Below are positions 23,883-27,584 of a stretch of 39,811 nt of DNA, in pieces. A program made the translations under genes and the position numbers. The notes below the pieces were generated by a model. The model did no database searches. It saw nothing but the letters and a program-made list of their open reading frames with translations, and was not told where the DNA came from. This stretch comes from Candidatus Bathyarchaeota archaeon. Its GTDB lineage: Archaea > Thermoproteota > Bathyarchaeia > TCS64. How positions within the stretch are numbered: the stretch's first letter is position 1; the number at the start of each line of letters is the position of its first letter. The stretch spans positions 1-39,811 of the forward strand of contig JASLYX010000003.1 of the NCBI GenBank assembly GCA_030739585.1, given 5' to 3'.

Positions 23883-24440
23883 CTAAATATCGACCTCTTT
23901 TGCGATGCCCCGCCTTATTAGGTTTTCAGCGTTCTCCACGGGGAGGGATACTACGTCCTCAGGCTCAAAGGGGCCGTATGTCTTCATGTCAATCCCCATG
24001 ATCGCAGGGACTGCCTGGAGGAACCGGACCACCTTAAGACCCGCCTTTTGTGGGGGCTTTGCGTCTACATGAGGTAAGCGCCCCATTAATATATCTTTCA
24101 ATCCCCCCTCGTAGCTCATCAGAAGACTCCGGAGGTCGCTGAGAAAGCTTCTCTCTATCTGAGTTAAGGAAGATCCGGCTATCGCAATCCTGTTAAGCTC
24201 CGCCTCTACAATCTTCCTAAGCCTCCTGCTGGAAATTTCTTTGAGGAGTCTCTCAACGTTAACCTGTTCCTTCTCTGAGATCCGCCCCTTTAGGGAGGTT
24301 TTATCGAGCATTCGATTCTCCCTCCTAAGTTCTGCGAGGTACTCAGTCATTTTCCCAAAAAAATTATCTGGGAGAGCCTGGAGTTCCCCAGAACGCTTCT
24401 CCCTCTTACAAACATCTAGGAGCCTTGAGTATTTATCCAT
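23883..24440 (-). CDS. gins15: Archaeal GINS subunit (Gins15/51 type)
   Basis: A GINS-family replication protein of about 185 residues, part of the complex that bridges MCM helicase and primase or polymerase at the fork. The long N-terminal helical A-domain (about 1-115) comes first. A short B-domain at the C-terminus (VRFLQAVPAIMGIDMKTYGP ... NLIRRGIAKEV) follows. This A-then-B order defines the Gins15/51 type. The ATG at 24440 overlaps the PriS stop (TGATG); a longer start at 24470 lies within priS and is not needed. Its location between primase and L44e is conserved in many archaea. Confidence 0.88.
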   Translation of the reverse strand: MDKYSRLLDVCKREKRSGELQALPDNFFGKMTEYLAELRRENRMLDKTSLKGRISEKEQVNVERLLKEISSRRLRKIVEAELNRIAIAGSSLTQIERSFLSDLRSLLMSYEGGLKDILMGRLPHVDAKPPQKAGLKVVRFLQAVPAIMGIDMKTYGPFEPEDVVSLPVENAENLIRRGIAKEVDI

Positions 24441-25675
24441 CAGTTCACAACCCTCGCCGACTTTCTGCACAGGAAAAACATCGCGACCGCCATGGGAAGC
24501 TCTTGGGTCTCCTCTTTGAAGGGCCCATAGCTCTCCCCCTGGAGACTGATCTCGGGGGCATGTTTAATGTAGATCTTCTTATGCCCCTCTTGGAATGCAA
24601 CAGCTTTGGTAAGAGGATCATAATCCGGGAGGTCCTCGATGGTGACGTTCTGGGTGAGCCATCCCGTCTTACCATGGAGAGTATTGGGAAGCCGTATCAA
24701 TCTTTTGAGATCAGTGGTCACCACGGTATCGATCGCCGAAGCCTGCTCTTCCACTGCTATATTCAGCAGATTTCCCATGGACTTTTTGTCAATATATCGT
24801 ACGATGCGGCTGGGATGCTGATTCATCAAAGAAGAGAGGATCTTGTCTTTCTCCACGACCAGATCCCGGGTGGTTTTCCTGCTCAATCTCAGCGCTTTAA
24901 TCTCATCAGGGGTCGACTTTCCGATGAAATCGTAAAGGGCCCTGATGGTTCTTCCCCTCCAGCCACCGCGCTCCAGCATGGATCCGCCCCCCGCATGCCT
25001 CGGGGTAAGGCCTTGATATTGGGCCTCTATCCCTATCCCTAGGATGTAATCCACCACCTCCCGCCTTGCCAGCTGATCGAGTTCCTTTGCCACCGGGCTC
25101 CTCACATGGACATGGTACCCCCGATTCCCCGAAAAGTTAACCGAGAGCTCGGAGGGCTGGAAGCCAAAATCCTGGATCAGCATATCTATGAGCTTCTGGG
25201 CCTCGTACTTCGCTGCGTCAAGGCAGTTCCCGCATATCCAATTCTCTAGGAAATAGGTTGCTTTACCACAACCCGGGCAACGTTCCGGGGGATGCCCCTT
25301 CCCTGCCTCTCCGCAGGCCTTACAGGTCCAGCGGTCATGGATCTTCTGGCAGGAGAGAACAAAGTGGTCTGCGTCTATGTCAAAAATAAGGTCCGCCCCA
25401 ATCCAGCCCTTTTCCACCATTGAGGCCCGGGGTTTATTGTAATAAGCTGCCGAGAAGTAAGAGTGGGCAGGGGAGTAGTTCCTCAGATATCCCCTGAGCT
25501 CCTCGATGACCTCGAAACCGATGTGGCGGAACATGGTCCTTCCCCTGAATGAGAGAAACCCGAACTCACGATGCTTGATCTCTGGGGGAGCATCCACGCA
25601 CTGAGCTCCGGTAGAATAAAATTTACCGAACTGATTCGAGACGTACTCTACGCTTCCCAAGTCCTGCTCGATCAT
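24440..25675 (-). CDS. priS: DNA primase small (catalytic) subunit
   Basis: The 411-residue catalytic subunit makes RNA/DNA primers. The metal-binding aspartates are D99 and D101 in FDIDAD, the nucleotide-contact motif is SGNRGYHVH at 182-190, and LPNTLHGKTGW (about 330-345) carries the third active-site region. A zinc-binding insert at 118-151 has six cysteines in three CxxC or CxxxC pairs (C118, C121, C133, C136, C148, C151), a richer cluster than in many euryarchaeal PriS. The N-terminal REFGFLSFRGRTMFRHI is typical. It overlaps GINS and lies 30 bp after a small Cys protein gene that separates it from priL. Confidence 0.93.
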   Translation of the reverse strand: MIEQDLGSVEYVSNQFGKFYSTGAQCVDAPPEIKHREFGFLSFRGRTMFRHIGFEVIEELRGYLRNYSPAHSYFSAAYYNKPRASMVEKGWIGADLIFDIDADHFVLSCQKIHDRWTCKACGEAGKGHPPERCPGCGKATYFLENWICGNCLDAAKYEAQKLIDMLIQDFGFQPSELSVNFSGNRGYHVHVRSPVAKELDQLARREVVDYILGIGIEAQYQGLTPRHAGGGSMLERGGWRGRTIRALYDFIGKSTPDEIKALRLSRKTTRDLVVEKDKILSSLMNQHPSRIVRYIDKKSMGNLLNIAVEEQASAIDTVVTTDLKRLIRLPNTLHGKTGWLTQNVTIEDLPDYDPLTKAVAFQEGHKKIYIKHAPEISLQGESYGPFKEETQELPMAVAMFFLCRKSARVVN

Positions 25676-25705
25676 TTGTTCACACTTAATAGAATTTTCG
25701 AAACT

Positions 25706-25891
25706 TTAAAAACCACTTTCCTTAAGGGGAGGAATATTAATCCTGAAGTCATTGTACTCACAATCTCCACATAGCTCCGGGTTGTACCTCACGAGATTGT
25801 CATACTTCCTGCAGAAATGAAGACCGTAATTGACAAGCCGTAAAGTCTTATCATTCTGCTCCTTGGCTCCTATCGCTCCCTTCTCCTGCAC
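25706..25891 (-). CDS. Small cysteine-containing protein between priL and priS
   Basis: A 61-residue open frame starts with GTG at 25891, immediately after the priL stop, and ends 30 bp before priS. It is on the same strand, and codon use resembles its neighbours. The protein has HFC at residue 27, then NPELCGDCEYN with C41 and C44, which could form part of a metal site or redox pair. I do not recognise a family. It is not an extension of PriL, whose four Fe-S cysteines are all present. Its location suggests an accessory of the primase or a small replication-linked factor; this is inference from position. Confidence 0.55.
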   Translation of the reverse strand: MQEKGAIGAKEQNDKTLRLVNYGLHFCRKYDNLVRYNPELCGDCEYNDFRINIPPLKESGF

Positions 25892-25892
25892 A

Positions 25893-26966
25893 TTAATTAT
25901 CCACGAGCGCTAAGTCCGCACTTTCCAGACTTTGTTTTCTCTGGATGTCCCTCACCTTTATTCTGTAAAAGTGTAAAGGATGCTTGGTGTGCTGACAGAG
26001 CCTCTCAGGGTTAATGCAAACGCTGTGGGTCTTGAATGTGGAACATGTGGGCGGCGTATATTTGGTCCGACCCCCCCTGAGCCCGGCTATGTGCTCTATC
26101 TGGTACCGAGTAAACTCCTCATCGAAATCTGTAACGGACATAAAGAGACTCACGATCTCGTCAATATCCATCCCCACATTGATCAGGAAAGACGTAAGGC
26201 CGAACCGCTCCATATGGCTGAGCCTCTTTCCCACCATAAGTCCCTCGTACGCATGCCGAATGCATGGGGGAAAAGCTTCGTTCACGAGTTTCGGGGGAAG
26301 ATCACCCCCCATTAGTCTCATCCTATTCTCCTCGAAAATCTTCTTGAGGATCTCCACTTTAGCCCCAAGGGGACCGGGGAGAGATATCTGGCCGCGTTTT
26401 GAAACCAGATTTTTGATTCGCCCTTGGATCTCTTCCTGTAATAGCCTGCTTGCCTCCCTCCTTGTTAGAAGAACGTAACCTCCCTTCATAAGCCGGTTCA
26501 CGATCTTCCACTTGGGCTCTCTGAAAACCGCAGCATTCCTCAGGTAATCACTAAAAAGCAACTCAAACTTATACACACGTCCGTCAAGCCTCTCGTCAAC
26601 AAGTCTGAGGGTCCAACCGAATTCGAGTCTTGCGATCTTAGCCAATCGCTCCTCCGTCTCGTCTTTCAGGAGTCCTTGAGCCCTCACCGCCTCCGAGAGG
26701 GCATATCTTCTGAAGAGGAATTCCTCTCCCAAGGCGGTAACGAACATGTTGCCTACAGGAAAAGATAACAGCTCCATGATAGTGTCTTCTAGCTCGGAGG
26801 TAGTCTCACCGTTTATTATGGCCTGAGCGACTCGCTTCTCGGCCCGGTCCAGGACTTTTGCGTGTCCTGGATCCATAAGATCCTCTAAGGTTAGGTCTAT
26901 GGCATGAACGAGTGTAACAGCGTTGTGGAGGAAAGGGTATTTAGCAGCCTCCCTCTCGGAGATCAC
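25893..26966 (-). CDS. priL: DNA primase large subunit (Fe-S)
   Basis: The 357-residue regulatory subunit of archaeal primase. The N-terminal helical domain (about 1-210) contacts PriS. The C-terminal domain holds a [4Fe-4S] cluster bound by C235 (FPPCIRHAYEGL), C308 (YTPPTCSTF), C317 and C324 (ERLCQHTKHPLHFY). The start is a GTG at 26966. It is the first gene of a run that continues through the small Cys protein, PriS, GINS, L44e, S27e, aIF2alpha and Nop10, with gaps of at most about 30 bp. Confidence 0.92.
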   Translation of the reverse strand: MISEREAAKYPFLHNAVTLVHAIDLTLEDLMDPGHAKVLDRAEKRVAQAIINGETTSELEDTIMELLSFPVGNMFVTALGEEFLFRRYALSEAVRAQGLLKDETEERLAKIARLEFGWTLRLVDERLDGRVYKFELLFSDYLRNAAVFREPKWKIVNRLMKGGYVLLTRREASRLLQEEIQGRIKNLVSKRGQISLPGPLGAKVEILKKIFEENRMRLMGGDLPPKLVNEAFPPCIRHAYEGLMVGKRLSHMERFGLTSFLINVGMDIDEIVSLFMSVTDFDEEFTRYQIEHIAGLRGGRTKYTPPTCSTFKTHSVCINPERLCQHTKHPLHFYRIKVRDIQRKQSLESADLALVDN

Positions 26967-27584
26967 TTTTGGGCCACTTCCAAACCTATGGAAACACGGG
27001 GGAATATTATCCTTTTCCCAAAAAGTGCCAGGCTAGATTGGACCTTTGACCCTAATAGAGGCTACACGCGTACCCTCGCTCAAGCAGTAGAATGCCATTT
27101 CCAAGCGTGTTCCTAGAGGTCGCCGTCCCTCTAGTCTCCGTGGTCTTGCTGAATATCAGTGCTACCGTTTTCTTTTCGAAAAGTAACATCAACAGGGATT
27201 ACGAAAATAGATTCATTAGTTGAGTGAACTGGTCGGTCCCCTTCCATGTGAACGCTAATCCCTCCATCGACTTGATGGCAGTTATAACGCATCTGACATA
27301 GACATGTTGGGGGGGGTTAACGTGATAGAAAAAGAGGTAGAAAACAATTCTCTCAACGGGGATGATGTCAGTCATAAATGCGAACTACTCGGGTAGTGCA
27401 TTCAGTCTTGCGCGCGCGTCAAATCCCTCTAGATCAGGTCTAACGAGGGCATTAATGGATCTTAGGAGATGCAAAAGCTCCATCATTAAAGGTATAAAAA
27501 CAGAAGAACCGGACAATTTGAGATTCCTCTTGGCAATTTATGTTAACAAGTGAACCGTGAAAGTAAAGATTTATTACAGAAAAG
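26967..27584. other. Intergenic region with broken short ORFs (+)
   Basis: No recognised gene. On the plus strand a frame from the ATG at 27092 reads MPFPSVFLEVAVPLVSVVLL and on to a TGA at 27221. It looks like an N-terminal transmembrane segment. The same frame then stays open to a TAG at 27299. After a run of eight G (27309-27316) another frame begins MLGGVNVIEKEVENNS and stops at 27394. These pieces could be fragments of a decayed membrane-protein gene, but I cannot assign a family. The left part must hold the priL promoter. Confidence 0.3.

Follow-up and report, generated by a model that had tools for sequence, protein, structure and literature searches.

A small open reading frame lying between the two primase genes was analysed in a stretch of 39,811 nucleotides (the window) of a Candidatus Bathyarchaeota archaeon, assembly GCA_030739585.1, contig JASLYX010000003.1, positions 1 to 39,811. 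The frame is read on the same strand as priL and priS, and its GTG (25891) starts one base past the TAA of priL (25893-25895). An earlier note on this DNA had described the 61-codon frame, with a GTG directly after priL and a CGDC motif in its product, and had proposed a small metal- or redox-active protein in the primase operon, possibly a new replication accessory. The frame, its position and the motif in the translated sequence were all confirmed, and the primase subunits were indeed found to be complete without it, as judged from their Pfam matches and from an alignment in which the PriL of the window retains all four C-terminal Fe-S cysteines. The same frame was also sought between priL and priS in relatives and was found in 22 genomes. 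The conservation described below indicates that the frame is a real gene. It belongs to a microprotein family confined to one lineage, and its product is predicted to have roughly 45-60 residues across the family. No description of such a family was found in the papers searched, and it is apparently undescribed.

All orthologues have in common the core pattern G-L-H-x-C-x4-N-x-V-x6-C-x2-C, in which the G, L, H, C, N, V, C and C columns were invariant in 23 of 23 aligned sequences and Y and N nearly so. The earlier note had made its proposal depend on the conservation of frame and cysteines in relatives; both were conserved, together with a histidine. Its CGxC pair was correctly recognised, while the conserved His and the H-x-C half of the site had been missed. 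The shortness of the frame, the weak start codon in the window and the fast-evolving tails, which are variable across the orthologues, could suggest that there is no gene here, just a chance open frame or a conserved DNA or RNA element. Such an explanation is very improbable. The pN/pS value, pooled over seven hand-picked pairs, not all of which were sister pairs, was 0.44 (chi-square p~1.5e-10), which points to purifying selection, and the third codon positions varied most (0.51 vs 0.31 and 0.30). Over the core, the remaining five frames were free of stops in only 4-11 of the 23 sequences, the His and Cys residues were invariant across two families, and there was no Rfam match in the window.

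Features of the priL-priS region in the window
Feature	Position	Strand	Remarks
priL, primase large subunit	25893..26966	-	357 aa; Pfam PF04104 DNA_primase_lrg, E=8e-33
Small open reading frame	25706..25891	-	61 codons plus stop; GTG start, TAA stop; conserved core = residues 20-50
ATA codon	25871..25873	-	ATG at the equivalent position in three same-genus relatives (DNA alignment)
Invariant core GLHFCRKYDNLVRYNPELCGDC	25760..25825	-	Putative ligands H25 (25819-25817), C27 (25813-25811), C41 (25771-25769), C44 (25762-25760)
TTTTTAAA, TATA-box-like	25705..25712	-	37 nt ahead of priS ATG; overlaps the stop codon of the small gene
priS, primase catalytic subunit	24440..25675	-	411 aa, complete; Pfam PF01896 DNA_primase_S, E=7e-20; Cys-rich zinc-ribbon-like insert

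To collect the orthologues, 61 related genomes were searched at the protein level, and a profile was then run against 257 genomes of the class. The 22 positive genomes gave profile E-values of at most 5e-19, the next best match in the class being 0.006; 21 of them come from the Bathyarchaeia lineage of family rank to which the window belongs (f1), represented by 27 genomes, and one is the sole genome available of a sister family (f2). The gene was absent from a further sister family (f3), which belongs to the same order as the window. Six f1 genomes had no match. In three of these (G004, G009, G014) priL and priS follow each other on a single contig, 55-130 nt apart, so that the gene is really absent; the remaining three lack priL or have a broken contig. 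A scan with a degenerate DNA version of the core pattern over about 85,000 species representatives (GTDB) yielded 24 stretches, 21 of them labelled Bathyarchaeota. One match in a Thorarchaeota record and one in a Methanobrevibacter record were dismissed as chance, since stops interrupt the frame. An 'Acidimicrobiaceae' match (L101, PBYV01000012.1) was not accepted as a sign of wider distribution either: it carries the small gene and a priL piece 86% identical to that of the window, and is probably a misbinned Bathyarchaeota contig. In 398 genomes across the phylum only sub-threshold matches were seen beyond the window, and a motif scan of IMG/VR gave no match. As far as these searches reach, the small gene is restricted to one Bathyarchaeia lineage.

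The four invariant ligands are laid out as H25-x-C27 and C41-x2-C44, and would probably hold one metal ion, most likely zinc. In the AlphaFold2 (AF2) model of the window protein a helix (residues 7-21) precedes a hairpin with strands at 24-27 and 32-35, and a second, short helix spans 38-41; pLDDT is 82-83 over residues 21-40. The predicted fold thus starts with an N-terminal helix, continues with a beta-hairpin that bears H-x-C and closes with a short helix that has C-x2-C at its end; the model of a compact orthologue was likewise helix-hairpin-helix (pLDDT 84-88 over the core). The metal-binding part of the earlier claim is likely to hold in view of the invariant H, C, C and C, while redox activity found no support. 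As the Cys/His site adjoins the gene of an Fe-S protein, the product could be imagined as an iron or redox helper that delivers iron or sulfur to the PriL 4Fe-4S cluster, or reduces it. This is quite improbable, because three Cys and one His in the H-x-C/C-x2-C layout are more typical of zinc sites, relatives without the small gene retain all four cluster cysteines of PriL, and in a profile comparison the Fe-S region of PriL matched with a probability of 2%. The same comparison led us to reject a duplication of the PriL Fe-S motif, considered in view of an N-P-E-x-C-like stretch in both proteins.

The window protein had no match at the curated cut-offs of Pfam and NCBIfam, and other members gave weak scattered matches only. 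A profile search against PDB sequences detected no relative, the best match being an unrelated Fab light chain (E=1.9). In size (below about 70 aa) and in having a single small Cys/His site the protein resembles the archaeal one-domain zinc-finger microproteins of the C(P)XCG family, such as Brz (OE3104F), HVO_2753 and HVO_0758, but no sequence similarity to them was found; its first pair is H-x-C, with a spacing of 1, and its second is usually CGxCP. CPxCG microproteins are defined by two Cys/His patterns with 2-3 residues within each and 7-40 between them, at least one pattern being CPxCG, CPxCx or CxxCG (PMC2253796). The small protein falls outside this definition, its H-x-C being followed by a C-x2-C after which E, P, S, R or Q stands, never G; it may still work like a CPxCG microprotein.

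Of the 22 loci, 15 carry a CTCAAATA-like element, which takes the form CTCAAATA, CTCATATA or TTCAAATA, stands as a rule within AACCCTCAAATA and falls in the final bases of priL or directly past its stop; the upstream sequence of L015 shows it for G017, the fifteenth. In most orthologues, weaker variants in other genera included, an in-frame ATG, GTG or TTG follows 26-38 nt downstream of the element. Conservation of the element could in principle reflect the C-terminal tail peptide of PriL ('EPSNT'). This was rejected as the main cause, since in L046 (CTCAAATA) and L036 (CTCATATA) the element sits beyond the priL stop, where PriL coding cannot explain it. A second element, of TTTTTAAA/TTTTAAAA type, lies roughly 31-37 nt upstream of the priS ATG in 15 loci. 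From position and conservation, priS and, in most genera, the small gene likely have separate promoters. The location given by the earlier note is right, but membership of a primase operon is doubtful because each of the two has a promoter-like element of its own.

The window locus itself has no CTCAAATA-like element, and which start codon is used there is uncertain between the candidate positions. The sole canonical start in the list of in-frame starts is GTG 25891, which is also kept in three same-genus relatives, 28 nt past the AATAC element of those relatives. Where the window reads ATA, these three also have an ATG, 48 nt ahead of GLH and preceded by GGAGGAGG or a comparable purine-rich sequence.

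The promoter-like elements at both the small gene and priS fit the main rival explanation, according to which the product is a Brz-like local regulator: its gene lies immediately upstream of priS and is read in the same direction, and the product, as a small zinc-finger protein, would act on the promoter or transcript of priS, or on its own. The element of the small gene was missing in all nine examined loci from which the gene is absent, although one of these, L052, is weak as it ends just past priL. There is also a precedent: Brz of Halobacterium is encoded directly upstream of its target gene bop, which it regulates (PMC2253796). On the other side, no DNA-binding fold was recognised, and the charge of the core is not consistently basic. 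We regard this explanation as rather unlikely, while giving it real weight.

The gene order on the minus strand is TFS, PCNA, priL, the small gene, priS, Gins51, L44E, S27E and aIF2alpha, where TFS, PCNA, priL, priS, Gins and aIF2alpha were named by Pfam, L44E and S27E by reading the translations. This is the same neighbourhood as the statistically supported archaeal replication/translation cluster of PCNA, PriS and Gins15 with L44E-S27E-aIF2alpha-Nop10 (Berthon et al. 2008, PMC2643942), and the window has that order; the passages of that paper on the cluster say nothing of a small protein encoded between the primase genes. Some further observations were made in this region. PriS carries at residues of about 115-155 a zinc-ribbon-like C-x2-C ... 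C-x2-C segment, just ahead of the usual W-x-C-x2-C-L motif; it was seen in the PriS of the window's order and is kept across the aligned class members, with one Cys position variable in g2 and g6. The 600-bp gap between PCNA and priL holds an apparent decayed AHSA1/SRPBCC gene (27088-27535, minus strand), 69% identical in DNA over 450 nt to a sequence of G002, in which the frame is open (Pfam AHSA1, 1.8e-20) while that of the window is broken. In L055 (G030), from the sister family f3, the priL-priS gap is 853 nt long and contains two inserted frames which, judged by eye from the translation only, resemble a HEPN-type protein and an MNT nucleotidyltransferase and could form a toxin-antitoxin pair.

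The small gene sits between priL and priS in all 22 genomes that have it, and no relocated copy was seen among them. This position favours a tie to the primase or to priS expression, and the synteny makes a functional association with the primase plausible. We tentatively prefer the reading that the small protein is a primase-linked accessory, possible at best in our estimate, with the primase proposed as its partner. The metal-locked hairpin would be a small adaptor or nucleic-acid-contacting module that acts together with the PriS-PriL primase, whose genes flank its own, and in most genera the protein would be made from its own short transcript beginning at the priL end. It would be a dispensable, lineage-specific accessory with no role as a catalytic subunit. 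The narrower proposal, that a lineage-specific zinc microprotein binds PriS-PriL and tunes priming, as a third primase-associated factor that is dispensable and has no relation to PriX, is more doubtful. PriX, the third primase subunit of Saccharolobus/Sulfolobus (PMC5700102), is likewise an extra small protein linked with PriS-PriL. The window protein is, however, far smaller, is not detectably similar to any PDB chain and occurs beside a PriL with an intact Fe-S domain; sequence or fold kinship to that domain, which characterises PriX, was seen neither in the PDB profile search nor with Foldseek or the profile comparison.

Several results weigh against the primase-linked reading. The gene is cleanly lost from the three nearly complete genomes in which priL and priS are adjacent and kept. 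Within a genus the small protein is about 50% identical, as against 85% for PriL, and so diverges faster. Foldseek found no structural relative in PDB and BFVD, and the net charge spans -3 to +8 among the orthologues, so that nucleic-acid binding is not uniformly suggested. Among the Haloferax C(P)XCG microproteins, zinc binding was seen for only 9 of the 14 tested; that work warns that predictions of this kind often fail, and metal sites are beyond what AF2 can judge (PMC11241148). In so stable a cluster, moreover, the position can persist by vertical descent alone. This last point leads to the view that the gene encodes a metal-binding microprotein whose cell function is unrelated to the primase, and which is kept in place since the flanking cluster rarely rearranges. 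Its own promoter-like element, its restriction to one lineage and the lack of visible change in priL and priS upon its loss agree with this view, which is made improbable, though by no means negligible, by the constant position between priL and priS.

Whatever its partner, the small protein is not a core or generally required primase subunit, since it is lineage-limited and has disappeared from relatives whose priL and priS are intact. A new replication accessory, as the earlier note supposed, stays plausible from genomic position, provided that no general requirement is implied. For Bathyarchaeia, which are abundant and uncultured, the family offers a short, testable candidate for a local regulator or a factor tied to the primase, and its clean pattern of presence and absence inside one family provides natural controls. 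The finding also shows that one of the best-studied gene clusters of archaea contains conserved microprotein genes that have stayed unclassified.
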